The notes below the pieces were generated by a model, which saw only the letters and a list, made by a program, of their open reading frames with translations, searched no databases and was not told where the DNA came from. A program made the translations under genes and the position numbers. Positions 8,609 through 40,397 of a stretch of 62,991 nt of DNA are shown in pieces; the first letter of the stretch is position 1, and every line of letters begins with the position of its first letter. Origin of the DNA: a virus. The stretch lies in IMG/VR virus record IMGVR_UViG_3300010375_000003, positions 1 to 62,991 of that record. One strand, given 5' to 3'.

Positions 8609-8949
8609 CAGTCGACCACCTGGCTGATCATCTCGCCGTCGTCCTCGACCTGGACGAGCTGCTGGTAGCGGCCGTCCGGCAAGTCGATCGGATCGTGCTC
8701 TTCATGGAGCAGGCGAGCGCCGCCACCACGAATATCCAGGATCTGGGCGCCCGTGGTGATGTCGCGGAACATCCGGACGTTGTCGGGCGTGTCGAACGAG
8801 AAGCTACAGCCCTCGATCCGGTGGTGATGGCCGGTCGCCTCGCCCAGAGCGAGCACGAGCTTGCCGTGTTCCGGCTCGACCTGCGTCAAGCCTTCCAGCG
8901 TGCCGAGATAGGGGATCAGTGGAACATCCCCCTGCCGATAGTTTTCCAT
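8608..8949 (-). CDS. Conserved small phage protein (HEEH motif)
   Basis: 113 residues from ATG at 8949, which has GAGGA upstream; the longer frame is not supported. Marks: YRQGDVPLIP near the start, GEATGHHHRI in the middle, LLHEEHDPIDLPDGRYQ near the end. Related proteins (QGDV ... GEATGH.H ... HEEH ... LP.G.Y) occur in many bacteria and phages, in my recollection also beside DUF6745 genes, so the two may work together. The histidines suggest metal binding, perhaps a cupin-like barrel. Function unknown. Confidence 0.65.
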   Translation of the reverse strand: MENYRQGDVPLIPYLGTLEGLTQVEPEHGKLVLALGEATGHHHRIEGCSFSFDTPDNVRMFRDITTGAQILDIRGGGARLLHEEHDPIDLPDGRYQQLVQVEDDGEMISQVVD

Positions 8950-9017
8950 GTCAGTCCTCTTCGTTGCCCGGCCGCCATTCGGCCGGAGGTTGGTGATTCT
9001 GGCGAGCGCCGCCGGCG

Positions 9018-9437
9018 TCACACCTTGCCTCCGGCGATCACCGCCAGTGGCGGCGGCTCGGAGGTGAAATCGGGGTGCTTGTTCGCCATGTGCTGCGCGA
9101 GCTGGGCGAAGGTCCGGTTGCAGCAGGGGCAAACGCCAGCCTTGGCGCGGTTGCGCAGGCGCGTAGTCTGACCCTTATAGGCCGATGCGCTACGCTCCGC
9201 GGCTTCGCGATGCTCGCGCTGCCAGGTGATCTCGTCGTCCTTCTGGGCGATCCGCTGCGTCAAGCGCTGGTTCTCGCGCCGCAGCTTGTCCTCGGGCGTC
9301 TCCCCTTGTGGGAAATGTTGCGAATGCCCCCATGGACAATGGAATGGTTGTGACGACCGCCGCAGCGTCGCCTCGGTTTCGGGGTTGAGCATGAACTGCT
9401 CGCCGCATTTGTAGCATTTGAGCCAATGGTTGGTCAT
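9018..9437 (-). CDS. Zinc-finger protein with coiled coil
   Basis: 139 residues from ATG at 9437 (ATGA overlap with the upstream stop). Order: an N-terminal zinc ribbon half (LKCYKCGEQF) completed by FHCPWGH, a coiled coil of about 50 residues (DKLRRENQRLTQRI), and a C-terminal C2H2-type finger (VCPCCNRTFAQLAQHMANKH). Probably binds nucleic acid. It lies early in the left operon. Target unknown. Confidence 0.65.
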   Translation of the reverse strand: MTNHWLKCYKCGEQFMLNPETEATLRRSSQPFHCPWGHSQHFPQGETPEDKLRRENQRLTQRIAQKDDEITWQREHREAAERSASAYKGQTTRLRNRAKAGVCPCCNRTFAQLAQHMANKHPDFTSEPPPLAVIAGGKV

Positions 9438-19307: not shown

Positions 19308-19381
19308 TGGCGGGTTCGCTCAACTATTGCGACGTGGTCGCACCCGCCAGCCGTCAGATTCTACAAGGAGAGCAATCTTGA
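19307..19381 (+). CDS. Tiny ORF before the PRTRC cassette (24 aa)
   Basis: MAGSLNYCDVVAPASRQILQ plus four residues, starting as TGATG with the multi-HTH gene and ending four bases into the TTG start of the ParB gene. It contains the AAGGAG that serves that start. It may be a coupling leader rather than a functional peptide. Confidence 0.3.
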   Translation: MAGSLNYCDVVAPASRQILQGEQS

Positions 19382-20799
19382 ACGCCCCCGAAAACGCTGG
19401 TCCCAGCACCTTGCCACTCGCTCAGATCAGGCAAGGGCATAACCCGCGGCGCTACTTCGACCGAGAAAAGCACGAGGAGCTCGTGGCATCCCTGCGCATG
19501 CGCGGCATGTTGCAGCCCATGCTGCTCCGGCCGGGCCCGCTCGGCGACAACTGCTATTTCATCGTCGCGGGCGAGCGCCGGTACCGGGCCGCGATCGAGG
19601 CTTTCGGTGCTGAGGGCGAAGTCCCCGTGGTTGTGCGCGAAATGACCGAGCAAGAAGCGCTCGAGGCGGCGATCGACGAGAACGATATCCGCGAAGACGC
19701 ATCGGAAACAGAACAGGCCGACGCCGCGGTCCGCGTGCTCGCTGCCTGCGGGAACGAGCGTGCCGAGGCCGCCAGGCGCCTCGGCTGGTCGCCGGCGAAG
19801 CTCGACCGCCGTCTCGCGCTCGCCAACCTCTCCGAAGCGGTGAAGGTCGCGCTCGACGAACGGCGGATCAAGGTCGGGCATGCCGAGCTGCTCGCCGCGG
19901 TGCCGGGCGATAAGCAGGACAAAGCGCTCGACACGATCGTCACCGCCGCCCTCGACGTTGCCAAGACGCGCGAGCTGCTGATGCGCGTGACGCAGAGCCT
20001 GGGCGCCGCCGGCTTCGACAAGACGGAATGCACGACCTGCCCGTTCAACTCAGCGTCACAGCGCGCGCTGTTCGAAACCCACGTCGACGACGGCCACTGC
20101 ACCAACCCGGGCTGTTTCCAGCTCAAGACCGATGCCGCCGATGCGGCACGGGCTGCGGAGAAGGATCAAACGCAGGAACCCACGGTCACGCCAGCGGTCG
20201 AAACCGCTCCCCACGCCGGGATCTGCCGGATTTGCGGATGCACCGACGATCGCGCGTGCGAAGAGCCCTGCACCTGGACGGACAAGTCGCAGACCCTTTG
20301 CAATAATCCGACGTGCGTCGCCGCGGCGGCGGCACCGGTCCTCGCTCCTGCGAGTCCGGAAAAGCCGTCTGGCAAACCGTCGGCGCCGCAGAAAACAACG
20401 GTAACGGCCAAGTCGATCGCTGGCCGCGTGACCCCGCTGCGCGAAACGGCCTGGCGGCGCGCGCTGGTTCAGGCATGCGAGGGCGACCCCGAGTTCGCGC
20501 AAGCGTTCGAGGCGATCCTCCGCGACGTCTGGAAGGTCGATCGCGCTTTCCTCGGCCAATTCAACAAGGACGAGCTCAAGTTCATCGCCCAGGAGTGCGG
20601 CCTGGTCGCGCATATGGGCGAGAAGGCGTTCGCCAGGCTGCTCCCGTCGCCGGTCGGCAAAATCGTCGACGGCATGCTGAACGCCACCGGCTTCGACTGG
20701 TCCGGTCGCCTCCCCAGCTCGATCACGCTGGACGGCAAATATGGCCCGCCCCCGGCGGCGGACGCCAGCGCCACAACCGAATCTCAGAACAAGGACTGA
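19378..20799 (+). CDS. PRTRC-type ParB family protein
   Basis: 473 residues from TTG at 19378, preceded by AAGGAG. The N-terminal ParB domain shows the CTP-site motifs NPRRYF near 22-27, GERRYRA near 65-71 and DENDIRED near 97-104. A helix-turn-helix follows (RAEAARRLGWSPAKLDRRLA). Two Cys/His clusters (ECTTCPFNSAS...DDGHCTNPGC and CRICGCTDDRAC) and a C-terminal domain complete it. This extended, Cys-bearing form is the one used in PRTRC cassettes, and the next genes are PRTRC E, C, F, B, A and ThiF. It should load on DNA and spread as a CTP-gated clamp, if active. Confidence 0.85.
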   Translation: MNAPENAGPSTLPLAQIRQGHNPRRYFDREKHEELVASLRMRGMLQPMLLRPGPLGDNCYFIVAGERRYRAAIEAFGAEGEVPVVVREMTEQEALEAAIDENDIREDASETEQADAAVRVLAACGNERAEAARRLGWSPAKLDRRLALANLSEAVKVALDERRIKVGHAELLAAVPGDKQDKALDTIVTAALDVAKTRELLMRVTQSLGAAGFDKTECTTCPFNSASQRALFETHVDDGHCTNPGCFQLKTDAADAARAAEKDQTQEPTVTPAVETAPHAGICRICGCTDDRACEEPCTWTDKSQTLCNNPTCVAAAAAPVLAPASPEKPSGKPSAPQKTTVTAKSIAGRVTPLRETAWRRALVQACEGDPEFAQAFEAILRDVWKVDRAFLGQFNKDELKFIAQECGLVAHMGEKAFARLLPSPVGKIVDGMLNATGFDWSGRLPSSITLDGKYGPPPAADASATTESQNKD

Positions 20800-20804
20800 C
20801 CGCT

Positions 20805-21227
20805 ATGCTGATCACCAGCTTGCTGCCGCTGCTCTCGCGCTATTCGCTCGGGTTCGATCTCGCCGCCGGGCCCGACGATACGGTCACGCTGACCGTCATC
20901 CCCCGGAAGGCCGAGGGCGCGGCCCGTAATCTTGAGGGCGGAGAGGTGCGGCCGATCTCGATCACCGCGAGCGCCGCAGAGATCGACGAGGAACTCGCCA
21001 AGGGTGCCGATGGCGCGCTCGGCCAGCTTATCGCCGTGCGCAAGGGGTTGGGCGACCAACTCGCCGAGCAGCAGCAGGCGGCCGAGGCGGCAAAGACGGC
21101 GGCGGCCACCAAGTCGAAGCCGGCGAAGGCTGCTGCGACTGCGCCCACCCCCTCACCGGCGGCGGCGCAACCGCCTGCGGCACCGCCCACCGAACCCGCG
21201 CCTGGCGAGCCCGCCAGCCTCTGGTGA
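20805..21227 (+). CDS. PRTRC system protein E
   Basis: 140 residues beginning MLITSLLPLLSRYSLGFDLA, with strands (TVTLTVIPRKAEG), a segment GEVRPISITASAAEIDEELA and a Lys/Ala/Pro-rich C-terminal tail ending in Leu-Trp. This is the PRTRC E pattern: a short folded N-terminal part and a low-complexity tail. Function in the cassette is unknown. Five bases separate it from parB. Confidence 0.8.
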   Translation: MLITSLLPLLSRYSLGFDLAAGPDDTVTLTVIPRKAEGAARNLEGGEVRPISITASAAEIDEELAKGADGALGQLIAVRKGLGDQLAEQQQAAEAAKTAAATKSKPAKAAATAPTPSPAAAQPPAAPPTEPAPGEPASLW

Positions 21228-21270: not shown

Positions 21271-21477
21271 ATGCAAATCAATCATCTGACCAGAGCGTAC
21301 CGCTACGACGGTATCGATCTGCCGATTCCGCCCCACCTTGCCGACGATCCGCAGGGCCTGCGCGCCTATCACGCCACCCTCTACCCGGCGATCCTCAACG
21401 CCGAGACGGTTGACGCGGGCGTGTCGGGCGGCGTGCTCGTCACCGAATACCGGCGCGCGGTCGGCACCAAGGGCTGA
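21271..21477 (+). CDS. PRTRC system protein C
   Basis: 68 residues: MQINHLTRAYRYDGIDLPIP, then PQGLRAYHATLYPAILNAET and a beta end GGVLVTEYRRAVGTKG. It matches PRTRC C in size and sequence character. The last residue is glycine. Together with the E1-like and JAMM genes of the cassette this makes a small beta-grasp, ubiquitin-like role worth testing, but that is inference. Confidence 0.8.
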   Translation: MQINHLTRAYRYDGIDLPIPPHLADDPQGLRAYHATLYPAILNAETVDAGVSGGVLVTEYRRAVGTKG

Positions 21478-21479
21478 CG

Positions 21480-21695
21480 GTGGCGCGGCGCAAGAGCGCG
21501 GACATCCCCGCAGCCGCCCGCAAGACGCTCCTCGAATGGATCGAACAAGACGATGTCGACAGCAGCATCCAACCTAACTGCAGCGAAACGGATCAAGCGC
21601 TCCACGCGAGCATCCTCCTCGCGCCCTATGACGGAGCGTCGGCGTACGAGCGTCTTCAACCGCCCGCAGGGTTGCGTCTCGCGCCCCTCGGTTGA
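21480..21695 (+). CDS. Doubtful small ORF within the PRTRC cassette
   Basis: GTG at 21480, two bases after the C stop, opens 71 codons (MARRKSADIPAAARKTLLEW...). The last 143 bases overlap the start of gene F in another frame. The first 25 residues look protein-like, the rest do not. It may be a short coupling gene or may merely fill the space before F. Confidence 0.25.
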   Translation: MARRKSADIPAAARKTLLEWIEQDDVDSSIQPNCSETDQALHASILLAPYDGASAYERLQPPAGLRLAPLG

Positions 21696-22668
21696 ACTGG
21701 CGGGGTGTTCGGTCGCGCTGTCGATCGATGTCCCGGCAGGTTTCGATGCGCCGCTCGCCGCGCACCACAAGCTGATCGGCGCTTGGGTCGCATCGCACGA
21801 AAAGTCGGATGCCCGATATACCCGTGCCGATGCTCGCAAGCATATCGAGCGCGCGTTCGATGCGGCGGTGATCGAGATCCTCAAGCCGTTCAATTTGGCG
21901 GACCTGCAAGTGCTCGCGCTTGCTGGTGACGATGGCACGGCGCCGGCGATCGCCATCGTTTGCGACACCGTCGGTCAGATCGACCTGGGCTGGATCGAAG
22001 AAAGTAATCCTCTCGCGGCCGCGCCGGGCAAGCGCGTGGCGCCGCAAAGGTGGTGTGCCGCAGCCTATCAGGCGTTGGAAGATACCCTCTCGGTGGCGCT
22101 GCCGATCTTCGGCTATGGTGACCTGTTCGAAGAAATGGCCGCATATAGCTGGGACGGCGAGACCACGGACGTCGCCGCGATCAAGGCGATGGTCGATATG
22201 GGCCAGGACCTGGGCGACATCGACGAGGAAATGTTGCCCTCGGCCATGAATGCGCGCCGGCCGGCCTGGATGCTCAAGGAGAACGCGGCTCCGCTGAAGC
22301 AGCTGCCGGCGGCGCTGCGGCGGAGGATCTATCGGCTTCGCGATCTGCGCGTGGCCATCAAAGGTATGCCGGCCGAGACGAACGCCTGGCACTTCTCGTT
22401 CGATCAGGTCGTCGAATACATGCCCGAGTTCGAGGACGCTTCGCACTTGCCGGCGATGACGCTCGTCCCCGCTGACCAGTTCGCTCGCGAGCTCGATTAC
22501 GTCGGCGATTACGGCATGCAGCAGGGCTTCATGAATATCGCCGGGCTTTGCCCGCTGTCCGACGCTGCCGCGGTCGACGCGTGGTTCGCGTCACTCAGGC
22601 TCGGCGCCGAGTTCCTGCTCGCCGCCCAGGAACTGATCACCATCGACCCCGCCAATTCGTGTGAGTAG
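21553..22668 (+). CDS. PRTRC system protein F
   Basis: 371 residues from ATG at 21553; an in-frame ATG at 21628 would remove a basic, unfolded stretch and may be the real start. The body carries FDAPLAAHHKLIGAWVASHE, an alpha-beta core and a long acidic insert around GDIDEEMLPSAMNARRPAWM. I recognise it as PRTRC F, whose function is unknown. Three bases separate it from gene B. Confidence 0.8.
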   Translation: MSTAASNLTAAKRIKRSTRASSSRPMTERRRTSVFNRPQGCVSRPSVELAGCSVALSIDVPAGFDAPLAAHHKLIGAWVASHEKSDARYTRADARKHIERAFDAAVIEILKPFNLADLQVLALAGDDGTAPAIAIVCDTVGQIDLGWIEESNPLAAAPGKRVAPQRWCAAAYQALEDTLSVALPIFGYGDLFEEMAAYSWDGETTDVAAIKAMVDMGQDLGDIDEEMLPSAMNARRPAWMLKENAAPLKQLPAALRRRIYRLRDLRVAIKGMPAETNAWHFSFDQVVEYMPEFEDASHLPAMTLVPADQFARELDYVGDYGMQQGFMNIAGLCPLSDAAAVDAWFASLRLGAEFLLAAQELITIDPANSCE

Positions 22669-22671
22669 CTG

Positions 22672-23445
22672 ATGCCAGGACATTCCACCCAGTTCGAAGT
22701 CACCGACGGCAGCATGGCGCTGACCAACGCAATCCTGCTCTACCAGCCAACGGGCCAATCCGCGCCGGGTCGCTCCCTGCCCGCATTCGCTAGCCTTCAC
22801 GCGGTGGAGCAGGCGGAGGGCAAGCCGACGATCGGCGCCGGCGCGCCTCTTTCGCACGCCCATCTCCGCCAATGGGCGAAGGCCCTGGGTTTAGGCGCCC
22901 CCCCCGAGATCCTGCCTGACAACGTCGTCGTCTATCACACCGACATGCTGGCGTGGTGGACGCCAGAGCGCGTCCGTCCTGGCTATTTCAACCTGTCGGC
23001 ACCGCCCAAGGGGCTGCGCGCGCTTTCGGAGCGCACGGTGGTGCCTGTTCCCTATCCCGCTCACCTATTCGTTGCCACGCGATCGGGCCTTGGCGTCTAC
23101 GCCCTGCCCACCAACGAACGGCCGACCGCGTTGACCGTGTTGATGTGCTCGCCGGTGCTGAACGTATTTGCCAGCGGGCAACTATGCTGGGGCAATATCC
23201 CCCAACCGAAGAAGATCACGCTCGCCGCGATCGCGGAATACGAGCGGGCGGTGTTCGATTCCTGGTCGACGCATCCCAATCCCGGACAGGAGCACAGCGT
23301 AACCGGCAAGGGCGGCCTGGTGCGCCTATGGGATGACCTCGCGACGCGTAAGGCCGTCCGGTTCCCCTATAAGCGGCTCAAGCCGTTCGGCGCCGGCGCG
23401 CCGGTGAGTTTCGGGCAGCTTGTCGCGCGGAGTGGCCGCGCATGA
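22672..23445 (+). CDS. PRTRC system protein B
   Basis: 257 residues. PRTRC B marks: YHTDMLAWWTPERVRPGYF, the core RPTALTVLMCSPVLNVFASG, then LCWGNIPQP at 171-179 and FDSWSTHPN at 195-203. The Cys172 region and the His-Pro-Asn triplet are conserved features as I know the family. They recall the residues of E2 ubiquitin-conjugating enzymes, though in a different order. The stop overlaps gene A by four bases. Confidence 0.8.
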   Translation: MPGHSTQFEVTDGSMALTNAILLYQPTGQSAPGRSLPAFASLHAVEQAEGKPTIGAGAPLSHAHLRQWAKALGLGAPPEILPDNVVVYHTDMLAWWTPERVRPGYFNLSAPPKGLRALSERTVVPVPYPAHLFVATRSGLGVYALPTNERPTALTVLMCSPVLNVFASGQLCWGNIPQPKKITLAAIAEYERAVFDSWSTHPNPGQEHSVTGKGGLVRLWDDLATRKAVRFPYKRLKPFGAGAPVSFGQLVARSGRA

Positions 23446-24104
23446 CGATCCTCGCCAATGATCCCACTGCGGCGGCAGTGCTCTCAGCTGCGCCGTGCTA
23501 CCCCATCCCGCCGAGCGGATCGTCACCCGCCATCGATGCGCTTCGCTCAGCGCGCGCCGGCCGCGGCCTGGCCGTCGGCCACGATGGCGTGATGCTGATC
23601 CTGCGGCGGCCGTGGCTTGAGCTCGACGTGCCGATCACGGAGGCGCTCGCCGCCTATTTCCCCTATGGCAGCATTGGCCGGCCGCGGGCCGACCTGCGTT
23701 GCGGCCTCATCCCTCGCCACCACCTCGACGAGATCCTCGACCATTTCAGGGCGGCGCTGCCGAATGAGGCGGCAGCGTTCGTGATCTGGAACGAGGTCGA
23801 CGGGAGATTCGCCGTCAATCTCCCGGCCATCGACCATGCGACGCCCTCGCGGCTGGTCTATCGCACGCCGAACCTGCCGCCGAATTGGCATATCGTCTGC
23901 GACGTTCACAGCCACGGTCGCGCAGCCGCCTTCTTCAGCTCGACCGACGATGCCGACGACGCCCATGCGACCAAGATCGCGCTCGTGTTCGGTGGCCTCG
24001 ACGATCCGGCCAGCCCGCCGACGATGGCTTCGCGGCTGTGCGCCGATGGACTGTTCCTCCCCATGCCTCGCAGCCCGTTCGCTGGAGATCGCGATGCAGC
24101 CTGA
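23442..24104 (+). CDS. PRTRC system protein A (JAB/JAMM domain)
   Basis: 220 residues. The C-terminal half holds a complete JAMM metallopeptidase motif: His156-Ser-His158, seven residues, Ser166, two residues, Asp169 (DVHSHGRAAAFFSSTDDAD), with candidate catalytic glutamates upstream at 109 and 118. JAMM enzymes cut isopeptide or peptide bonds next to ubiquitin-like tails using zinc. It overlaps B by four bases and the ThiF gene by eleven. Confidence 0.85.
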   Translation: MTILANDPTAAAVLSAAPCYPIPPSGSSPAIDALRSARAGRGLAVGHDGVMLILRRPWLELDVPITEALAAYFPYGSIGRPRADLRCGLIPRHHLDEILDHFRAALPNEAAAFVIWNEVDGRFAVNLPAIDHATPSRLVYRTPNLPPNWHIVCDVHSHGRAAAFFSSTDDADDAHATKIALVFGGLDDPASPPTMASRLCADGLFLPMPRSPFAGDRDAA

Positions 24105-24873
24105 CGCCCCAGCCCGACACTATCTGCTCGCGGCATGCGACAAGCACGACATCAACGTCCAGCTCGTGGGCTGCGGCGGAAACGGGGCGCAGATGCTGAT
24201 GGGCCTCGCATCGCTCGACACGGCGCTGCGGGCGATATCGTCGCGGTCGCTGCACGTCACGGTCGTCGACGACGACATCGTGACCGAGGCAAATCTCGGG
24301 CGGCAGCCGTTCTATAGCTGCGACCTGGGGAATTCGAAGGCGATCACTCTCACCGAGCGGATCAACCTGGCGCACGGGCTAGCCTGGCGAGCAGTTCATG
24401 GCCGCGCCCCGGAAGCAATCGGCGTGCGAGATGTAGACGTCCTGATCACCTGCGTCGACACCGCCGCAGCTCGCCGGGCGTTGGGTGCTGCGATGGGCGA
24501 GATCGGGCGACCGCCTCGCTATTGGCTGGATCTCGGCAACCGCGCGACCGATGGGCAATTCTTGATCGGCTGTCCGGCGGGCGGCGGCGCCAAAAACGAC
24601 GCACGCCTCCCCACTGTGCTCGAGTATTTCCCCGAGCTCGCCGACGAGAGCGTCGCGGAGGACGATGCACCCTCTTGCTCAGTGGCGGAGGCGCTCGAGC
24701 GTCAATCGCTGTTCGTCAACCGTGTCGTCGCGAGCCACGCGCTGGCGCTGTTGTTCGACCTTCTCGGCCGCGGGTCGATCAGCCACGCTGGCGGCTTCAT
24801 CAACCTCGCCAGCGGACAGGCCGTTCCGATCCCGCTACCGGCTAAGGTCGCGGTTGAGCAGGTAGCGGCATGA
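24094..24873 (+). CDS. PRTRC ThiF family protein (E1-like)
   Basis: 259 residues from ATG at 24094, with GGAG seven bases before it. E1/ThiF marks: the nucleotide loop GCGGNG at 26-31, acidic residues Asp59-Asp61 (VTVVDDDIV), the arginine motif NLGRQ at 67-71, and DVLITCVDTAAARR at 115-128. A late cysteine, Cys195 (APSCSVAEAL), is the best candidate for a thioester or catalytic residue. E1-like enzymes adenylate the C-terminal glycine of small beta-grasp proteins. The partner could be PRTRC C. Confidence 0.9.
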   Translation: MQPDAPARHYLLAACDKHDINVQLVGCGGNGAQMLMGLASLDTALRAISSRSLHVTVVDDDIVTEANLGRQPFYSCDLGNSKAITLTERINLAHGLAWRAVHGRAPEAIGVRDVDVLITCVDTAAARRALGAAMGEIGRPPRYWLDLGNRATDGQFLIGCPAGGGAKNDARLPTVLEYFPELADESVAEDDAPSCSVAEALERQSLFVNRVVASHALALLFDLLGRGSISHAGGFINLASGQAVPIPLPAKVAVEQVAA

Positions 24874-25229
24874 TGGTGCACCCCCATGCTGAGGCGCTGG
24901 TCGTCGTGCTTCGCGCCGGGCGATACCGCACGAGCACCGAGGCAGCGCTGCAAGATTCGATCGAACAGCATCTGACGTCATCGGGCGTCGAGTTCGAACG
25001 CGAAAAGGTGCTCGCGCCGGGCGAGCGCATCGACTTCTTCGCTGGCGGCGTCGGGATCGAGGCCAAGGCGCGCGCGAACAAGCGAGCCGTATTCCGCCAG
25101 CTCGAGCGCTACGCGACCAACGATGCGATCGACGCCCTGATCCTGATCACCGGGACCGCGATGGGTCTGCCGGCGACGGTCAAGGGCAAGGCACTATTCT
25201 ACGTCTCGATCGGCAGGAGCGCGCTGTGA
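24870..25229 (+). CDS. PD-(D/E)XK nuclease-like protein
   Basis: 119 residues with a compact restriction-enzyme-fold pattern: helix with Glu at 29-36 (LQDSIEQHL), then ERIDFFAGGVGIEAKARANK, in which Asp54 and Glu64-Ala-Lys66 give D-x9-ExK, and then FRQLERYA. Small stand-alone enzymes of this kind act as Holliday-junction or nicking nucleases. ATGA overlaps on both sides tie it to ThiF and to the SNF2 helicase, so it probably works with the latter. Confidence 0.7.
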   Translation: MMVHPHAEALVVVLRAGRYRTSTEAALQDSIEQHLTSSGVEFEREKVLAPGERIDFFAGGVGIEAKARANKRAVFRQLERYATNDAIDALILITGTAMGLPATVKGKALFYVSIGRSAL

Positions 25230-26902
25230 AAACTTACGGCAAGCTCAAGCTGGTGCGCGATGGCGTCCACTATTGGGAACTCAGCGACTTAGCGCCGCAT
25301 GTTGCGATCGCGTTCAAGAGGCTGTTCCCGCGCGTACCCGCATCGGCAAAGACAATCACGCTGAGCGACGCCGACGACATCCGCGCCGATCTCGACTGGT
25401 TCATGGCCCGCTATCCTCTGGCGCATGAAGAGGCCGACGAGATCGCCGGCGGTGTTTCCAGGGTTAAACACCGCATCGCAGAGCGTGACCGTATCCTGCT
25501 GCCAGATTGGAAGCCGGGCGAAATTCTCGGATTCCGCGATGGTTACGCGCCATACCTCTACCAAAGTCAGGCTGCTCAGATCGCCATCGACAATGGCGCG
25601 CTGCTTCTCGGCGACGAAGTCGGCCTTGGTAAGACGATCACGGCCGCTGCGGCGTTTACGGCAGGCGCGCCCATGCCGGCCGCTGTCGTCGTGCAGGCGC
25701 ATCTCGCCGGACAATGGCAGGCGCGGATCGAGGAATTCACGACGCTCAGGGTTCACGTCATCAAGGGAACCAAGCCCTATGACCTGCCACCCGCGGACAT
25801 CTACATCTTCCGCTATTCGAACGTGCTCGGCTGGGTCGATGTCATCACCAGCGGCGTGTTCAAGTCGGTTGCCTATGACGAGATCCAGGAACTGCGCCAC
25901 GGACGCGGCACCGCAAAGGGCGCGGCGTGCTGGCACCTGAGCGACCAGGCCGATTTCACGCTCGGGCTGACCGCCACGCCGATCTACAATTACGGCGACG
26001 AGATCCATCGCGTGATGGGGTTCCTGAAACCGGACCTGCTCGGCGACGCATATGAGTTTACCCGCGAATGGTGTGGCGGCGGCAAGATCGTGAAGGATCC
26101 CGACGCGCTGGGTTCGTACCTGCGCGAGACCGGCTATTTCCTGCGGCGGACCGAGGATGACGCATCGGTCGACGCATCGATGCCGCCCCCGAATATCATC
26201 GACTGGGAAGTCGGGTACGACGTCGCTGCCGCGGAGGGCGAGGAGGCGCTGACGCGCGCGCTCGCGATGACCGTGCTGCAGGGCAGTTTCGTCCAGGCCG
26301 GCCAAGCTGCGCGTGAGCTCGACAGCCGAATGCGCCAGCTGACCGGCATCGCCAAGGCGCGGTCAGTCGCCGCCTACGTTCGCCTGCTGCTCGAGGATGG
26401 CCAACGCGTCCTCCTCGCCGGCTGGCACCGCGAGGTCTATTCGATCTGGCAGCAGGAACTCGCTGGGTTCGATCCGGTGCTATATACCGGCAGCGAGACC
26501 ACGGCGGGCAAACAGCGCAGCTTCGATGCCTTCGCCGGAGGTGATGCTCGCTTGATGATGATCTCGCTGCGCTCCGGCGCCGGGCTCGATGGATTGCAGG
26601 AGCATTGCAACGACCTGGTGGTCGGCGAGCTCGACTGGTCTCCGCAGATCATCCACCAGCTCGTCGGGCGCTTGCGTCGTCCTGGTCAGCGATTCCAGGT
26701 CACCGGGCATATCCTCCACGCCAATTGGGGTAGCGATCCGGTCCTGCTGGAGACGCTCGGGATCAAATCCGACCAATCGCGCGGCCTAATCGCGCCTGGC
26801 CAGTCGCCTGCGCCGAAGGTCAGCGACGATTCCCGGATCCGGCGGCTCGCTGAGCATGTGCTGAAGATGCAGGGCGTCGATGTCGCGCAGGTGGCGGCAT
26901 GA
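25226..26902 (+). CDS. SNF2-type DNA helicase/translocase
   Basis: 558 residues. Superfamily 2 motifs: Walker A GDEVGLGKT at 129-137, motif II DEIQ at 218-221, motif III GLTATP at 247-252, then in the second lobe SLRSGAGLDGLQ at 447-458 and QLVGRLRRPGQ at 478-488 with its arginine fingers. It is closest to SNF2 proteins, which move along double-stranded DNA and remodel bound proteins. An N-terminal extension of about 100 residues is specific to it. It sits between the nuclease and the BCS1-like ATPase in a run of overlapping genes. Confidence 0.9.
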   Translation: MKTYGKLKLVRDGVHYWELSDLAPHVAIAFKRLFPRVPASAKTITLSDADDIRADLDWFMARYPLAHEEADEIAGGVSRVKHRIAERDRILLPDWKPGEILGFRDGYAPYLYQSQAAQIAIDNGALLLGDEVGLGKTITAAAAFTAGAPMPAAVVVQAHLAGQWQARIEEFTTLRVHVIKGTKPYDLPPADIYIFRYSNVLGWVDVITSGVFKSVAYDEIQELRHGRGTAKGAACWHLSDQADFTLGLTATPIYNYGDEIHRVMGFLKPDLLGDAYEFTREWCGGGKIVKDPDALGSYLRETGYFLRRTEDDASVDASMPPPNIIDWEVGYDVAAAEGEEALTRALAMTVLQGSFVQAGQAARELDSRMRQLTGIAKARSVAAYVRLLLEDGQRVLLAGWHREVYSIWQQELAGFDPVLYTGSETTAGKQRSFDAFAGGDARLMMISLRSGAGLDGLQEHCNDLVVGELDWSPQIIHQLVGRLRRPGQRFQVTGHILHANWGSDPVLLETLGIKSDQSRGLIAPGQSPAPKVSDDSRIRRLAEHVLKMQGVDVAQVAA

Positions 26903-28095
26903 CGCTGTACGATGCGTTCCACGCCCTACTCACGAATCCCGTGTTTGCTGGAATTGCCGGTGGCGCTGGCATGTCGGCCGTTCTCTATCAGGTCCGCGCT
27001 TTGCCCAAGCACGCTTGGGATTGGGCCCAGCGGACATTCACCGTGTCGATCGACATCGACAATTCCGACGAATTCTTCGGCAAGATGTCGGTCTACCTAT
27101 TCCGGCACGATCATGCCCGTCGGGCGCGTCGGCTGCGGATGGCTGAGTTCTACGACTTCGGCATGGAGAAGTGGCGCTGGGTGGTCAGCCTCGGCCAGGG
27201 CAACCTGTTGTTCCGCGACCATGGCGCCTGGTTCCTGATCAACCGGTCGGTCAGCGACGTCGCCAAGGGTGAGGCGCTGAAGCGGCGCGAGACCTACTAC
27301 ATCGCCTCGCTGGGCCGCAGCCAAGCCGCGCTGCGCGGATTGATGGAACGGGTCGACGCAGTTCACGACGCGACCGACACCACGCGCGTTTATGTCTTCC
27401 ACAACGGCTATTTCCTGCTCGCCGACCAGAAGCCGCGGCGGTCGCTTGATACGGTGTTCATCCCTGAGGATCAGAAGCGCCAAATCATCGCCGACGTCGA
27501 GCGGTTCGCGGCGTCGCGATCGGAATATCGCCGCAAGGGTGTACCGCATCGCCGCGGCTATCTGTTCGAGGGGCCACCGGGGACGGGTAAGTCGACGCTT
27601 GCCTATGCGATCGCATGCCATATCGGCAAGCCGGTCCATGTCGTCAACCTCAACACCTGCGGTGGCGACAGCGGTCTGATGATAGCGTTCAACATGGCGG
27701 GTGCCGAGGCGCTAATCCTGATCGAGGATATAGACACGGCCAAGGTGAGCCACGATCGCGCAGCCGCTCCCCCGACCGCCGAACTGGCGATCAAGCCCGA
27801 GGAAGGTGTCACGCTGAGCGGCCTGCTCAACGCGGTCGATGGTGTGGCAGCGCGCGACGGCCGGATCCTGATCATCACGACCAACCATGCTGAAGTGCTC
27901 GATCCGGCCTTGCTTCGTCCTGGACGGATCGATCGACGCGAGGTGATCGGGCTGATCGAGTACGACCAGGCCCGCGCGATGTGTGCGCTGCACCTGCCTG
28001 AGCGTGATGACACGTGGTTCGCGACAGAGATCGCGCCGATGCTACCGACATCACCCGCGGCGGTGCAGCAGCGCTTGCTGGCGGAGGACGCATGA
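26899..28095 (+). CDS. BCS1-like AAA ATPase with N-terminal membrane segment
   Basis: 398 residues. A short N-terminal hydrophobic stretch (NPVFAGIAGGAGMSAVLYQ, 13-31) precedes a BCS1-specific-like domain (residues 45-185, ending in RRSLDTVFIPED). The AAA module follows: Walker A GPPGTGKS at 225-232, Walker B LILIEDID at 272-279, sensor Asn329 (TTNH) and arginine finger region LLRPGRID at 338-345. Mitochondrial BCS1 moves folded proteins through a membrane. Bacterial and phage relatives are little known, and some sit in defence-type operons. A membrane-bound protein remodeller is the best reading. Confidence 0.85.
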   Translation: MTLYDAFHALLTNPVFAGIAGGAGMSAVLYQVRALPKHAWDWAQRTFTVSIDIDNSDEFFGKMSVYLFRHDHARRARRLRMAEFYDFGMEKWRWVVSLGQGNLLFRDHGAWFLINRSVSDVAKGEALKRRETYYIASLGRSQAALRGLMERVDAVHDATDTTRVYVFHNGYFLLADQKPRRSLDTVFIPEDQKRQIIADVERFAASRSEYRRKGVPHRRGYLFEGPPGTGKSTLAYAIACHIGKPVHVVNLNTCGGDSGLMIAFNMAGAEALILIEDIDTAKVSHDRAAAPPTAELAIKPEEGVTLSGLLNAVDGVAARDGRILIITTNHAEVLDPALLRPGRIDRREVIGLIEYDQARAMCALHLPERDDTWFATEIAPMLPTSPAAVQQRLLAEDA

Positions 28096-31577: not shown

Positions 31578-31973
31578 ATGGCGGCACGTGGCCCCAAGCC
31601 GAAGGCCGCGCAGTTGCGCCTGGTCGACGGCACGCACCGACCGGCGCGGCACGGCCAGGCCGAGAAAGCCAAGGCCAAGGTCGACGCCGCGATCACCAGC
31701 TTCGGGAAGCTGATCCGGCCCGCCCATCTCAAAGGCGAGGCGCTGGCGGCATGGAAGAAATTCATCGAGCCGGCTGGCTGGCTGGACGGTTCGCGCGAAG
31801 CCGCGGCGGTAGCTTTTTGCGAGCTGTGGAAGGAATTCCGCTTCAACCCCCAGGGGTTTCCCTCATCGAAGCACGGCCAGATGCGCGCCTATATGGCCGA
31901 GCTCGGGCTGACCGACGAGCGCAATCGCGGCAAGAGCGATGACGGTCCGAAAGACCCGTTCTTCAACGACTGA
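31578..31973 (+). CDS. terS: Small terminase subunit, P27 family
   Basis: 131 residues from ATG at 31578, preceded by AGAGG. The P27 opening is clear (AARGPKPKAAQLRLVDGTHR), followed by helices (HLKGEALAAWKKFIEPAGWL, then AVAFCELWKEF). It binds the packaging site and feeds DNA to the large subunit. Its end overlaps terL by 35 bases. Confidence 0.85.
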   Translation: MAARGPKPKAAQLRLVDGTHRPARHGQAEKAKAKVDAAITSFGKLIRPAHLKGEALAAWKKFIEPAGWLDGSREAAAVAFCELWKEFRFNPQGFPSSKHGQMRAYMAELGLTDERNRGKSDDGPKDPFFND

Positions 31974-33816
31974 TCATCGCGTCCTCGCTTATGCCAAGCG
32001 CGTCACCACAGGCAAGATCGTCGCCGGCCCGCATGTCCGCAACGCCTGCCGTCGGCATATCGATGACCTTAAGCGCGGCGGCAAGCGCCGGCTCCGCTTC
32101 AATCCCGAGGTCGCCGATCGCGCGATCGCGTTCTTCGAAACCAGGCTTCGGCTGAGCGAGGGCCAGTTCGAAGGCAAGCCCCTACTCCTGCACGAGAGCC
32201 AGGCATTCAAGATCGGCAGCCTGTTCGGCTGGCAATACGAGCACCCCACCCACGGATGGGTTCGTCGCTTCCGACGCGTCTATATCGAAGAGGGAAAGGG
32301 CAACGGTAAGTCGCCGATCGCCGGCGGCATCGGGCTCTACGGCATGATGGCCGACGGCGAGACCGGCGCCGAGATCTACAGCGCCGGCGCGACCAAGGCC
32401 CAGGCGGGCATCCTGTTCCAGGACGCCGTCAAGATGGTCAACCAATCGCCGGAGCTGAAGGCTCGGCTCAAGCAAAGCGGCGCCGAGGGCAGCGTCCACA
32501 ATCTCGGCTACCTCGCCAAGTCCAGCTTCTTCCGCCCGATCAGCCGCGAGGCGCGCAAGACAGGTTCGGGCCCGCGCCCGCATATGGCGCTGTGCGACGA
32601 GATCCACGAACACCCCGATGGCGGCGTGATCGAGATGCTCGAGCGCGGCTTCAAGTTCCGCCGCCAGCCGATGCTGGTGATGATCACCAACAGCGGCAGC
32701 AACCGCAATTCGATCTGCTGGGCCGAGCACGAACATGCCGTCCGCGTCGCCGCGGGCAATCCCGACGCCAAGGATGGTGACGCCGCCTATCTCGGCGAGG
32801 TCATCGACGACACCACCTTCAGCTATGTCTGCGCGCTAGATCCTGGCGACGACCCCCTCAACGACCCGAGCTGCTGGCCGAAGGCCAACCCGCTGCTCGG
32901 CGTCACGATCGATCACGATTACCTCGCCGGCGTCGTCAAGCAAGCGCTGCAGATGCCGTCGAAACGCAATGGCATCCTGCGTCTGCATTTCTGCCAATGG
33001 ACCGACGCCGAAACAGCGTGGATGACGCGCGAGATCCTGGAGCCCTGCCTGGCCGATTTTGACCCGGCCATTCACCACGGCAAGCGCATGGCGCTCAGCC
33101 TCGATTTGTCGCAGAATCGCGACATCACCGCCAAGGGCGCCTGCGTCGAGACAGGTAGCGTTGAGGTGCCGGTCAAGGTCGGTGACGACACGGTCATGAT
33201 CCGGAAGCCGACCTATGACGCATGGGTCGAGGCCTGGACACCGGGGGATACAATCGAGTCCCGCGCGCAGCGCGACAAGGCGCCCTATCTCGTCTGGCGC
33301 GACGCCGGGCATATCCACGCTCCCAAGGGCCAGAGCATCCGGTTCGACCACGTCGCGCAATCGATTGCCGACGACGACCGCTACTACGACGTCGGGCTGA
33401 TCGCCTACGATCGCTACGCCTTCCGCAAGTTCGAGGAGGAATGCCAGGCGATCGGCCTGTCACTCGAATTCATCGAACATCCCCAGGCCGGCGCCAAGAA
33501 GGGCAAGATCACCGAGGCGATCAAGACCGCCGCCAAGCGCGACCAGCGCGAGGTGGATGGTCTCTGGATGCCCGGCTCTCTCCGCGCTTTCGAGGAAGCG
33601 CTGCTCGAGGGGCGTATCAGGATCCGGCGCAATCCCGTTGTCATCTCGGCGATCATGTCCGCTGTCACCGACGAGGATCGCTGGGGCAATCACTGGCTCG
33701 CCAAGGAGCGGTCCACCAACAAGATCGACTGCGCCGTCGCGCTCGCGATGGTCATCGGGGCGATGCTGATCATGCCGCCCAGTGAGAACGACACGTTCCA
33801 AATGCTTGTTCTCTGA
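31939..33816 (+). CDS. terL: Large terminase subunit
   Basis: 625 residues of the Terminase_1 type. Parts: adenine-binding region LLLHESQAFKIGSLFGW at 82-98, Walker A-like EEGKGNGKS at 117-125, Walker B HMALCDEIHE at 215-224, and a C-terminal RNase-H-like nuclease beginning near ALSLDLSQNRDI. It is the ATP-driven packaging motor and cuts concatemers. Length is normal for HK97-type phages. Confidence 0.95.
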   Translation: MTVRKTRSSTTDHRVLAYAKRVTTGKIVAGPHVRNACRRHIDDLKRGGKRRLRFNPEVADRAIAFFETRLRLSEGQFEGKPLLLHESQAFKIGSLFGWQYEHPTHGWVRRFRRVYIEEGKGNGKSPIAGGIGLYGMMADGETGAEIYSAGATKAQAGILFQDAVKMVNQSPELKARLKQSGAEGSVHNLGYLAKSSFFRPISREARKTGSGPRPHMALCDEIHEHPDGGVIEMLERGFKFRRQPMLVMITNSGSNRNSICWAEHEHAVRVAAGNPDAKDGDAAYLGEVIDDTTFSYVCALDPGDDPLNDPSCWPKANPLLGVTIDHDYLAGVVKQALQMPSKRNGILRLHFCQWTDAETAWMTREILEPCLADFDPAIHHGKRMALSLDLSQNRDITAKGACVETGSVEVPVKVGDDTVMIRKPTYDAWVEAWTPGDTIESRAQRDKAPYLVWRDAGHIHAPKGQSIRFDHVAQSIADDDRYYDVGLIAYDRYAFRKFEEECQAIGLSLEFIEHPQAGAKKGKITEAIKTAAKRDQREVDGLWMPGSLRAFEEALLEGRIRIRRNPVVISAIMSAVTDEDRWGNHWLAKERSTNKIDCAVALAMVIGAMLIMPPSENDTFQMLVL

Positions 33817-33826
33817 GGAGACCACC

Positions 33827-34450
33827 ATGAACAACCGGGCCTATTCGGTCCTCTCGGTCAAGGCGATCGACGAGGCCAAGCGCACTATCAGTGGCATCGC
33901 GACGACCCCTGAGGTCGATCGCATGGGCGACATTGTCGAGCCGCTCGGCGTCAAGTTCACCAATCCCATGCCTTTCCTGTGGCAGCACGAGCACGACAAG
34001 CCGATCGGCTGGGTCAAGTTCGGCCAGCCCTCCGCGAATGGCATCCCCTTCGAGGCAGAGGTTGCCCAGACCACAGAGGCAGGCGAGCTGAAGGACATGC
34101 TCGATTACGCCTGGCAGTCCATCAAGATGGGCTTGGTCAGGGCCGTGAGCATCGGTTTCCGCGCGCTGGAATATGCGTTCATGGAGACCGGCGGCATCCG
34201 CTTCATCGAATGTGAAGTGTACGAGCTCAGCGCCGTCACGATTCCCGCCAACGCCGACGCGCTGATGAGCGCCGTCAAGTCGATCGATGCCGCCCTGCGC
34301 AAGGACGCCGGCGTCGCCGAACCCGAAATTCCCGCCGCACCGGACAATGCCGCGACAGGCAAGACCGTCCGGGTCGTCAAGCTGGAAGCCCCTGCCCGCG
34401 ATCGGGCGGAACCTTTCGTCATCCGTTCGATCAAAAGGAATGTGAAATGA
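33827..34450 (+). CDS. HK97-type prohead protease
   Basis: 207 residues from ATG at 33827 (GAGGAG upstream). S78 protease features: catalytic His in LWQHEHDKPIG (His54/His56) and catalytic Ser108 in RAVSIGF. It should trim the N-terminal delta region of the capsid protein during maturation. It overlaps the capsid gene by four bases. Confidence 0.9.
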   Translation: MNNRAYSVLSVKAIDEAKRTISGIATTPEVDRMGDIVEPLGVKFTNPMPFLWQHEHDKPIGWVKFGQPSANGIPFEAEVAQTTEAGELKDMLDYAWQSIKMGLVRAVSIGFRALEYAFMETGGIRFIECEVYELSAVTIPANADALMSAVKSIDAALRKDAGVAEPEIPAAPDNAATGKTVRVVKLEAPARDRAEPFVIRSIKRNVK

Positions 34451-35907
34451 GCAAGTTCAGCGAGCAGATCACTGCTTATGAGGCCAAGCGTGCCTCGACC
34501 GTCTCCGCCATGGAGGCGATCATGTCCAAGGCTGCCGGCGAGGGCACGACCCTCGACGCCGCGCAGTCCGAAGAATATGACGGCCACGTCGCCGACATCG
34601 AAGCGATCGACAAGCATCTCGATCGCCTCCGCTCGGCGGAAAAGGCGACTGCGGCCGTCGCCAAGCCCGTCGAGGGCGTGACCGACGCCGAAAAGGCCGC
34701 CGCTGCCCGCGGTGGCATCATCCAGGTCAAGGCCCAGCCCAAGCTTGCCCCGGGCATCGAGTTCGCTCGCCTGGTCAAGTCGCTCGGCGCCGCCAAGGGC
34801 GATATGGGTCGCGCGGAACGCATCGCGGTCTCGCGCTATGGTGCGGACTCGAATGCCGCCGGCGCGCTCAAGGCAATCTACGAGCGCGGCAGCGACAAGC
34901 TGGAGTTCGCCGGCTTCGAGGCGTTCCAGAAGGCCGCCGTTGTCGCCGGTTCGGCGGTTTCGGGCACCTGGGCATCCGATCTGGTCCTGACCGAGGGTGG
35001 CGCCTTCGCCGACTTCGCCGAGTTCCTGCGTCCGCAGACGATCATCGGCAAGTTCGGCACCGGCAATATCCCGGCGCTGCGTGCGGTTCCGTTCGATACC
35101 GCGCTCGGCATCTCGACCGCGGCGGGCGGCGGTTACTGGGTCGGCGAAGGCAAGCCGATTCCGATGACCGCGTTCAATGCCGACAAGAGCAGCCTGTCGC
35201 CGCTCAAGTGCGGCAACATCGTCGCTCTGACCGAAGAGCTGCTGATGCGCGAATCGTACAGCGCGGAAACGCTTGTCCGCGACGAAATGGCGGGCGCGCT
35301 GATCCAGCTCTGCGACACGACGTTCATCGACCCGACCAATGCGGGTACGGCGGGCGCCAAGCCGGCGTCGATCGCCTATGGTGCGCCGCATAGCGCTGCG
35401 TCGGGGTCGGGCGATGCCGACGACATCCGCGTCGACCTCCGCTCGCTGATCAATGAATTCATCACGGCCAACTCGCAGAGTGCCGGGATCGTCATTGTGA
35501 TGCGCGCAAGCGACGCGCTGGGTGCGGGTATGCTGGTCAACGCCCTCGGGCAGGCCGAATTCCCTAACATCAGCATGGGTGGCGGCACGCTGTTCCCGGG
35601 CCTGTCGGTCCTTACCTCGAACTCGGTGCCCGCGGGCGTCGTCGTCGCGGTGCAACCGAACGACATCTACCTGGCCGACGATGGCGGGTTCTCGATCGAT
35701 GTGAGCCGCGAGGCTTCGATCGAGATGCTCGACAACCCGACCAACGATGTCGTGACCCCGACGGCCACGTCGATGGTCTCGCTGTGGCAGACCGATTCGG
35801 TCGGCTTCAAGGCGATCCGCGTGATCAACTGGAAGAAGCGCCGCGCCACGGCGGTTGCGTATCTGTCCGGCGTCGCCTGGGGCGGCTCGGTCAACGACCT
35901 CAGCTAA
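34447..35907 (+). CDS. Major capsid protein, HK97 fold
   Basis: 486 residues. The first 110 or so are charged and coiled-coil-like (ITAYEAKRASTVSAMEAIMS, later DIEAIDKHLDRLRSAEKA), the scaffolding delta region removed by the protease. The HK97 capsid fold follows, with ALRAVPFDTALGI, YWVGEGKPIPMTAFNADKSS and LLMRESYSAETLVRDEMA. A strong terminator-like hairpin stands after the gene. Confidence 0.95.
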   Translation: MSKFSEQITAYEAKRASTVSAMEAIMSKAAGEGTTLDAAQSEEYDGHVADIEAIDKHLDRLRSAEKATAAVAKPVEGVTDAEKAAAARGGIIQVKAQPKLAPGIEFARLVKSLGAAKGDMGRAERIAVSRYGADSNAAGALKAIYERGSDKLEFAGFEAFQKAAVVAGSAVSGTWASDLVLTEGGAFADFAEFLRPQTIIGKFGTGNIPALRAVPFDTALGISTAAGGGYWVGEGKPIPMTAFNADKSSLSPLKCGNIVALTEELLMRESYSAETLVRDEMAGALIQLCDTTFIDPTNAGTAGAKPASIAYGAPHSAASGSGDADDIRVDLRSLINEFITANSQSAGIVIVMRASDALGAGMLVNALGQAEFPNISMGGGTLFPGLSVLTSNSVPAGVVVAVQPNDIYLADDGGFSIDVSREASIEMLDNPTNDVVTPTATSMVSLWQTDSVGFKAIRVINWKKRRATAVAYLSGVAWGGSVNDLS

Positions 35908-38311: not shown

Positions 38312-39030
38312 TGCTGACCGTCTTGTCCTGGCTCTGGGCGCAGCCTGGCGGCCGCACGACCTATACCGTCGAGCATGTCGCGACCTGGGCGGCGATGGTG
38401 TCGCGCAACCTGTCGATGCCGCATCGCATCGCCTGCGTGACCGACGCCGAGATTCCCGGCTGGATCGATCGCATCGCCCCGCCGCATGAATTCGACGACA
38501 TCCAGACCGCGAAATGGGCGAACGGGCGACCATCCTGCTACCGCCGATTGTCGATGTTCAGGCGCGATGCCGCGGCGCTCTTCGGCGAACGCTTCGTCTG
38601 CATGGACCTCGACAGCGTGATCTGCGGTTCGCTCGATCCGCTATTCGATCGCGACGAGGACGTCGTGCTGTTCAAGGGCACTGCCGAGGGCCGTCCGTAC
38701 AATGGCAGCATGATGCTGATCCGCGCCGGCTCGCGCCCGCTGGTCTATGACGATTTCTCGCAAGCCGGCGCCGAGCTCGCATCGGAGCGCTTTGTCGGCA
38801 GCGACCAGGCATGGCTCGCGCACGCCCTCGGCCCCGATGAGCCGGTCTGGGCCGGCGAGGACGGTGTGTTCTGGTATGGCGGCGAATATCGCCGGCTCTA
38901 TCGCCGTGGCCGCGCCCGGCCGCGCGTGATCTTCTTTCCAGGCGGCCAGAAGCCCTGGGACCCGCATATCCGCCTGATCGATCACCACGTGGGCCGCCAT
39001 TACGTGGCGGGCGTCAAGGAGGCCGCATGA
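38311..39030 (+). CDS. Glycosyltransferase, GT-A fold
   Basis: 239 residues beginning with a strand MLTVLSWLWAQPGG. The metal-binding DxD motif is Asp99-Leu-Asp101 in FVCMDLDSVICGSLDPLF, and NGSMMLIRAG and FVGSDQAWLAHAL are later GT-A features (compare GT8-type enzymes). TGATG couples it to the methyltransferase. Sugar donor and target cannot be read from sequence. Placement among head genes suggests virion or cell-surface modification. Confidence 0.75.
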   Translation: MLTVLSWLWAQPGGRTTYTVEHVATWAAMVSRNLSMPHRIACVTDAEIPGWIDRIAPPHEFDDIQTAKWANGRPSCYRRLSMFRRDAAALFGERFVCMDLDSVICGSLDPLFDRDEDVVLFKGTAEGRPYNGSMMLIRAGSRPLVYDDFSQAGAELASERFVGSDQAWLAHALGPDEPVWAGEDGVFWYGGEYRRLYRRGRARPRVIFFPGGQKPWDPHIRLIDHHVGRHYVAGVKEAA

Positions 39031-40397
39031 GGATCTTCGGCCTCACCATCACGCGCAAGGCTCTCAATGCCGTCGCATCGGCCGCGCGCGGCTGGGTCGC
39101 GGTGGTGCGCGAGGGCTTCTCCGGCGCCTGGCAGCGCAATGTCGAGGTCAACACCAACCTCGTCCTCTCCTACCACGCCGTCTTCGGCTGCATGACGCTG
39201 ATCGCCTCGGATATTGCCAAGCTGCGCCCGCGCGTCGTCAAGCAGCTCGACACCGATTCGCCGGTATGGGTCGAGAAATCCAACCCGGCCTATTCCCCGG
39301 TCCTGCGCAAGCCGAACGCCTTCCAGACCCGCTATCAGTTCTGGGAAAACTGGATCCTGTCGAAGCTGTCGCGCGGCAACACCTATGTGCTGAAACGTCG
39401 CGACGCCCGCAACGTCGTCATCGGCATGTATATCCTCGATCCCAGCCGCGTGCTGCCGCTGGTCAGCGACGACGGCCAGGTGTTCTATCAGCTCAACGTC
39501 GACAACATGGTCGGGCTTGAGCAGGGAATCACCGTTCCGGCGCGCGAGATCATCCACGACCGGTTCAACTGCCTGTTCCACCCGCTCGTCGGCATCAGCC
39601 CGATCTATGCGTGCGGTCTCGCCGCGACGCAGGGCCTGGCCATCCAGAACAACACCACGCGCCTGTTCCAGAACGGCGCGCGCCCCGGCGGCATCCTGAC
39701 CGCGCCGGGCAAGATCGGCGACGACACCGCCAAGCGCCTGAAGGAGCATTGGGAGAATAACTACACAGGCGAAAATGCCGGCAAGCTGGCCGTGCTCGGC
39801 GACGGGCTTAAATATGAGAGCCTCAGCATCTCGCCCGAAGACGCGCAGGTGATCGAGCAGCTGAAATGGACCAGCGAGACCTGCTGCTCGACCTTCCATG
39901 TGCCGCCCTACAAGCTCGGCCTCGGCACGATGCCGACCAACAACAACGTGCAGGCGCTGAACCTCGAATATTACACCCAGTGTCTGCAGTCGCTGATCGA
40001 GGCGGCCGAGCTGTGCCTCGATGATGGGCTGGGCATCGGCGAGGCCCTGGGCATCGGCACCGAGTTCGACACCGACGGCCTGCTCCGCATGGACACGCTG
40101 ACGCTGATGGACACGCTCGACAAGGGCAAGAACGTCATGACGCCCGACGAGGCGCGAGCCAAGGTCAACCTCGGCCCGACCCCGGGCGGCAACGTCGTTT
40201 ACCGGCAGCAACAGGATTTCAGCCTTGCTGCGCTCGCCAAGCGCGATGCCCAGGACGATCCGTTCGCGCGAGCCAGTGCGTCGATTCCCGCCGCGGCTGT
40301 CGAGGATGGTCCGACGGGCGATCCGGCGGCCAACGACAATAACGCCGAGGTTCAGGCGAACCGCGCGCTGGTGGCGATGATGAAAGGTCTCGGCTGA
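39027..40397 (+). CDS. Portal protein, HK97 type
   Basis: 456 residues of the phage portal family: NLVLSYHAVFGCMTLIASDI, NPAYSPVLRKPNAFQTRYQF, EIIHDRFNCLFHPLVGISPI and QLKWTSETCCSTFHVPPYKL. It forms the ring at one head vertex through which DNA passes. It lies downstream of the capsid gene, separated by the transferase cassette, instead of between terminase and protease. Confidence 0.92.
   Translation: MRIFGLTITRKALNAVASAARGWVAVVREGFSGAWQRNVEVNTNLVLSYHAVFGCMTLIASDIAKLRPRVVKQLDTDSPVWVEKSNPAYSPVLRKPNAFQTRYQFWENWILSKLSRGNTYVLKRRDARNVVIGMYILDPSRVLPLVSDDGQVFYQLNVDNMVGLEQGITVPAREIIHDRFNCLFHPLVGISPIYACGLAATQGLAIQNNTTRLFQNGARPGGILTAPGKIGDDTAKRLKEHWENNYTGENAGKLAVLGDGLKYESLSISPEDAQVIEQLKWTSETCCSTFHVPPYKLGLGTMPTNNNVQALNLEYYTQCLQSLIEAAELCLDDGLGIGEALGIGTEFDTDGLLRMDTLTLMDTLDKGKNVMTPDEARAKVNLGPTPGGNVVYRQQQDFSLAALAKRDAQDDPFARASASIPAAAVEDGPTGDPAANDNNAEVQANRALVAMMKGLG

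Follow-up and report, generated by a model that had tools for sequence, protein, structure and literature searches.

The DNA analysed in this work, hereafter called the window, comprises positions 1 to 62,991 of IMG/VR virus record IMGVR_UViG_3300010375_000003 and contains a complete PRTRC cassette with the gene order ParB-E-C-[T]-F-B-A-E1. This phage-carried cassette, which corresponds to row 6d in Table 1 of Iyer, Burroughs and Aravind (2006; PMC1779556), probably conjugates a small ubiquitin (Ub)-like protein and removes it again. A set for Ub-like conjugation and deconjugation is the best reading of these genes. It agrees with the protein families, with catalytic residues that do not vary, with the fold predictions and with the pattern at the Gly junction of protein C. 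An earlier note on this DNA had likewise proposed a conjugation system. That proposal was partly supported, and it is not novel: row 6d had already predicted such a set, so the reading is a rediscovery. The new elements are carriage by a phage, the small gene T and a Gly-junction pattern pointing to the likely cleavage site of the JAMM peptidase.

According to the mechanism proposed here, E1 would adenylate Gly68 of protein C and then take C onto its own Cys195. C would subsequently be handed to Cys172 of protein B, which would attach it to a lysine of a target; E, F or T might direct this step. Finally, protein A, a JAMM metallopeptidase, would cleave after the Gly of C. Since C of the window already ends at Gly68, A would be dispensable for its maturation in this phage and is more likely a deconjugase.

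Catalytic residues of E1, protein B and protein A

The three putative enzymes are encoded on the + strand and all of them exceeded the curated cut-offs of their NCBIfam families. The E1-like enzyme of the ThiF family (24094–24873) scored 258.2 bits with TIGR03736 (cut-off 144.75). The E2-like protein B (22672–23445) reached 155.4 bits with TIGR03737 (cut-off 131.45) and 96.8 bits with Prok-E2_D. Protein A (23442–24104), in which a DUF2016 domain is joined to a JAMM peptidase, gave 146.6 bits with TIGR03735 (cut-off 101.8) and 60 bits with Prok-JAB. These genes and that of protein C, with 68 residues ending in glycine, lie where the earlier note had placed them.

The adenylation motif and the late cysteine that the note had seen in E1 were confirmed: Cys195, Asp59, Asn67, Arg70, Gln71, Lys82 and Asp122 were invariant in 162 of 162 distinct relatives, with the qualification that invariance of the Gly loop is partly built in because the scans for relatives used a pattern on that loop. 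Likewise, Cys172 of B was invariant in 156/156 distinct relatives and the JAMM motif of A (Glu109, His156, His158, Ser166 and Asp169), of which the note had named the HxHx7Sx2D part, was complete in 137/137. In these alignments the conservation of catalytic residues is far beyond chance.

Regarding protein B, the note had combined Cys172 with an HPN triplet known from E2 enzymes, there in another order. The cysteine was upheld. The triplet at positions 201–203 is not the E2 triplet out of order, because it is located about 29 residues after Cys172 and its Pro is kept in only 113 of 156 relatives (His201 in 152 and Asn in 144). Asn164, 8 residues before Cys172 and conserved in 155/156, gives the spacing N-x7-C, which is the canonical distance from the Asn of the HPN motif to the Cys in E2 enzymes. 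As to the E2-like fold that the note had suggested checking, the model of B had a predicted local distance difference test (pLDDT) of 89.3, and E2 enzymes or their complexes were 8 of its 10 best VIA-align rows (Z 3.1–4.2), UBE2S reaching Z 4.2 (115 residues aligned, 4.4 Å).

A different explanation is that E1 and C form a thiocarboxylate of the ThiS/MoaD type, that the JAMM protein opens the C-terminus of C and that a small molecule receives the sulphur. The E1 belongs indeed to the ThiF family, and operons with JAMM, ThiS/MoaD-like and E1 proteins exist (Iyer et al., 2006). However, the solved structures closest to the E1 family profile were the E1s UBA6, Uba1 and NAE (E-value about 1e-8), MoeB/ThiF following at about 1e-6. 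Moreover, the cassette encodes alongside an E2-like protein whose Cys is invariant, and a scan of 10 proteins from the cassette and downstream of it detected no sulphurtransferase-type family. We consider this sulphur-carrier role quite improbable.

Protein C, its terminal glycine and the T gene

Protein C, the Ub-like modifier (21271–21477, + strand), matched Pfam family PF14454 Prok_Ub with 62 bits (cut-off 25) and NCBIfam TIGR03738 with 40.3 bits, below the cut-off of 45.95. It ends exactly at Gly68 (...GTKG), and Lys67-Gly68 was invariant in 54 of 54 aligned sequences; a few plasmid copies of C end in Asn-Gly or Arg-Gly. As to the beta-grasp fold for which the note had asked a prediction, the model of C had the order ββ-α-ββ (pLDDT 85.5). 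The VIA-align rows of this model were nearly all Ub, SUMO, NEDD8 and ISG15, with exceptions such as 7e44, 1kh0 and 8dn6, and the bacterial Ub-like protein 8tz0_E, which comes from an E1-E2-Ub-like complex, was aligned to it with Z 4.2.

Many relatives carry residues past the Gly of C, either 1–4 variable residues or domains of 50–97 residues. Besides small groups, these domains comprise at least three unrelated families, with 19, 12 and 10 members, and these families are joined at the same Gly. In the window, C is directly followed by T, an open reading frame (ORF) of 71 amino acids with a GTG start (21480–21695, + strand) that has a same-position counterpart in relatives and gave neither Pfam nor NCBIfam matches. 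The separate T of locus L171 matches the fused C tail of L101 (1.9e-17), and a match of 4.8e-24 links the separate T of L163 to the fused tail of L146. T is therefore an extension behind the Gly in some lineages and a protein of its own in others. Two tail families, of 12 and 2 members, consist of the conserved T protein. T of the window did not match any fused tail and was assigned by its position and C-terminal motif. In addition, a separate T-like ORF was still present downstream in 25/25 loci whose tails had been picked by motifs of two other families.

The presence of a tail was associated with that of protein A. Among distinct C cores with residues after the Gly, 87 had A and none lacked it; among those without such residues, 45 had A and 18 did not (Fisher 3e-8, ancestry ignored). 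In the 18 A-less distinct cores the stop codon always followed the Gly directly. Where several loci had the same C core, they entered the count as one. L009, L050 and L115, whose Gly end was unreadable, and L194, in which the position of A was not visible, were dropped, and six A-less loci without a C match (L020, L024, L029, L107, L129 and L193) stayed outside the count. On plasmids of Pseudomonas, Vibrio and Aeromonas (L028, L187–L192), cassettes were found in which no JAMM gene separates B from E1. A Prok-JAB match existed elsewhere in 5 of 15 A-less records and at the cassette in none, so these loci may retain some JAMM activity.

A further B-A-E1 lineage (L202–L216) was found among genomes from the phylum to which G020 belongs. 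In its 13 loci with a detected C, all of them with A, short hypervariable tails of 1–4 residues follow a conserved C core that ends in QHKG or QYKG. Prok-E2_D was present in 13/297 genomes of this phylum and in 2/369 of the class of G075. JAMM was also intact in 51/51 loci whose C requires no trimming, and this speaks for an additional function, deconjugation for example. The profile of A weakly matched the bacterial deubiquitinase BilC (E-value 0.049) and BubCD (0.98). As a separate observation, C looks frameshifted in a phage record with B, A and E1 (L009:6936-7574), by sequencing error or as a decayed modifier.

The tails could also be permanent domains of C and not pro-sequences, A having another role and the association between tail and A reflecting shared ancestry. 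This is unlikely, even considering that few independent changes are found on the E1 tree and that the conserved T protein is the tail in the 12-member and the 2-member families mentioned above. Against permanence, unrelated tails join the C core at the same Gly, the stop codon directly follows this Gly in all A-less distinct cores, and one lineage varies its 1–4 residue tails while the C core is conserved.

Several data weigh against a conjugation set with a JAMM-cleaved C, besides the built-in part of the Gly-loop invariance. Across the E1 tree there are 5 changes for A and 12 for the tail, and independent events linking tail and JAMM are too few for significance; the 3 well-supported independent pairs go in the same direction where they differ, with p 0.25. 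Because of these few changes, and because the Fisher value ignores ancestry, the pattern of tail and JAMM is consistent and suggestive, yet unproven. As regards folds, the VIA Z-scores of the C and B models are low (at most 4.4 for C and 4.2 for B), neither model had a significant match by Foldseek alone, and profile searches of the PDB gave no relative of B or C. For the former two reasons the fold matches are taken as support and not as proof.

Carriage by tailed phages and borders of the module

The record of the window carries tailed-phage genes, as revealed by a PHROGs profile search: a terminase (31939–33816), a major head protein (34447–35907), a portal in two ORFs (39027–41686), a tape measure (44736–47516), a head-tail adaptor and tail proteins. 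An endolysin and a transcriptional repressor are also encoded, and a weak integrase match was found at 133–1407. Taken together, these matches make a temperate tailed phage the most probable identity of the window. Its PRTRC genes, all on the + strand, have the repressor region on one side and the terminase on the other. The tailed-phage nature of the record, protein E and the T ORF had not been included in the earlier note.

Upstream of C, the PRTRC ParB-family protein (490 amino acids; 19327–20799, + strand) reached 333.5 bits with TIGR03734 (cut-off 278.6) and protein E (140 amino acids; 20805–21227, + strand) 74.3 bits with TIGR03741 (cut-off 37.95). The ORF at the position of protein F (21553–22668, + strand; 371 amino acids), which overlaps T and whose true start is uncertain, matched no family of NCBIfam (TIGR03742 included) or Pfam. 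The Cupriavidus protein at this position does match TIGR03742, and protein F was found in 160/198 loci by an iterated hidden Markov model (HMM). As the other core parts are present, F of the window was treated as diverged, and full family membership is weakened for F only. The PRTRC system also includes an actin-like protein D.

A tblastn search of E1 against 50,697 phage records gave 2 matches. One of them is in the isolate Burkholderia phage BgVeeders33, whose similar array does not bear such an annotation. From IMG/VR, 19 loci were retrieved in one scan and 154 relatives, 80 of which were kept, in another. Terminase phrog_9 or portal phrog_12 was present in 6/20 and 24/50 of the records scanned, a scan that 14 shorter records did not enter; the 40 scanned records with neither gene could represent fragments, different phages or elements of another type. 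The closest relative of the window, L002 (E1 97% identical, in a record of 55 kb), had neither phrog_9 nor phrog_12. Phage-confirmed records, including the window, amounted to 31, and E-C-B-A-E1 was complete and in order in 30 of them, L172 being cut by the end of its contig.

The E1 tree contains a 65-row clade (support 100) of viral and genome loci with zero plasmids. In the sphingomonad clade, to which the window belongs, loci from phages, plasmids and genomes stand together. A terminase was found near six genome loci of the 65-row clade, apparently on the same contig (L091, placed through its B match, L093, L095, L096, L098 and L101). In the five sphingomonad genomes tested, no terminase was close to the cassette.

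ParB was present in 10 of the 31 phage-confirmed records and absent from 21, and consequently it is not part of the phage core. The suggestion of the note that ParB could be a target of conjugation was weakened by this result, ParB being a poor candidate for a general target. The same count bears on a further explanation, that of a non-covalent adaptor complex serving partition or plasmid/prophage stability, with the catalysis of E1, B and A lost or unused. The cassette is named for ParB and common on plasmids (E1 was matched by 372/72,556 plasmid records), and ParB adjoins it in 104/198 loci. Nevertheless, besides the phage records without ParB, the nucleotide-binding, thioester and metalloprotease residues are completely conserved, and an adaptor complex is very improbable.

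The limits of the module were deduced from close relatives. From ParB to the end of E1 the identity with L002 and L003 was 92–93% (window 19364–24842 in L002 and 20323–24842 in L003, 20323 corresponding to the first L003 base compared). The nearest flanking matches were at 70–77%, and the next match jumps to window position 28368. Since the 92–93% identity block ends at E1, the functional unit extends from ParB/E to E1. Inside this unit, C showed 0 nonsynonymous changes with both relatives and 7 and 13 synonymous changes with L002 and L003, respectively, and the ratio of nonsynonymous to synonymous rates (dN/dS) of B, A and E1 was 0.08–0.14. Selection on the cassette among close viral relatives is strongly purifying.

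The three genes after E1 (24870–28095), which encode a nuclease-like protein, a SNF2-like helicase and a BCS1-like AAA protein and belong to phage families phrog_5928, phrog_62 and phrog_7485, are absent after the module in L002 and L003 and were rejected as parts of the cassette. Neighbouring ATPases, which the note had considered as targets, are thus outside the module and make poor candidates for that role. As to these genes themselves, the helicase (25226–26902) is a short standalone protein with weak matches to helicase models of DISARM, Dpd and Zorya, and the product of 26899–28095 is a phage-encoded AAA ATPase with BCS1_N and AAA domains. The cassette was also considered as a core gene set of the terminase lineage. 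This was discarded, as PRTRC HMMs had no match in 80 terminase-related loci (18 of them of at least 19 kb, with limited flanks); because the terminases of these loci were at most 73% identical in their best segment and flanks were limited, this absence says little on the nearest relatives.

Other features of these records were also recorded. The portal appears to be divided, as phrog_2271 positions 22–436 align to the first ORF and 540–723 to the second. A DUF5131 protein is encoded near the left end (5317–6402; 312.9 bits, phrog_2045). Finally, in L014 and L017 an inserted stretch of some 580 bases (about 8775–9354) separates B from A.

Relation to known systems and biological meaning

Row 6d describes operons of Ub-like, JAB, E1 and E2-like proteins for which protein modification was predicted (Iyer et al., 2006). 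Their parts are a small protein that shows a beta-grasp pattern and whose C-terminal Gly is conserved, an E1, an alpha-helical protein, a JAB with an extra N-terminal α+β domain and an E2-like protein without the classical His and with a His downstream of the Cys. The JAB of such operons was predicted to process the Ub-like protein and to remove it from targets. The window agrees with this description in its C with the conserved C-terminal Gly, its B with Cys172 and the downstream His201 and its A with DUF2016 and Prok-JAB; an E1-like and an alpha-helical protein are likewise common to both. The difference is that, in the parts of that paper covered here, phage genes are treated only as the tail-assembly TAPI/TAPK, and neither T nor fusions after the Gly are mentioned. 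No experimental follow-up of the 2006 prediction was found in the searchable literature, outside which most subscription papers lie.

Regarding the PRTRC system (NCBIfam TIGR03734–TIGR03742), the window has ParB, E, B, A and ThiF above the curated cut-offs. It differs in C below its cut-off, in the unmatched F, in the extra conserved ORF T and in being carried by a tailed phage and not by a plasmid. In two papers that mention PRTRC, the term stands for a plasmid annotation in one and forms part of a plasmid name in the other. Phage lambda TAPI/TAPK also pair a Ub-like domain with a JAB peptidase; they are tail-assembly genes for which the consulted parts of the paper name no E1 or E2-like partner (Iyer et al., 2006), while the cassette of the window lies upstream of the packaging genes. 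With Bil (BilABCD) and Bub the cassette shares the logic of Ub-like protein, E1, E2 and JAMM, but its E2 family is Prok-E2_D and it has a single Ub-like domain. Searches with PADLOC defence models left C, B and A unmatched, and E1 had only weak matches to E1-E2 fusion models. Membership in a defence system such as Bil, Bub or CBASS type II, having no PADLOC support for C, B and A, was rejected.

In the prophage, the putative conjugation set would most likely serve to maintain lysogeny or the replicon. A broader proposal is that temperate phages carry a working Ub-like conjugation in which C is often made as a Ub-fusion precursor, with the Gly followed by T or unrelated domains, and is split by the JAMM protein, T being a partner or substrate and the system marking proteins of the host or of rival replicons. 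We advance it tentatively, as it is unlikely. The compact phage cassette, the isolate BgVeeders33, the likely cleavage site marked by the tails and the natural JAMM-less versions offer clean material for testing the 2006 prediction. If the predicted system works, bacterial viruses would themselves employ Ub-like tagging, and the architecture of Ub-fusion genes would extend beyond eukaryotes.

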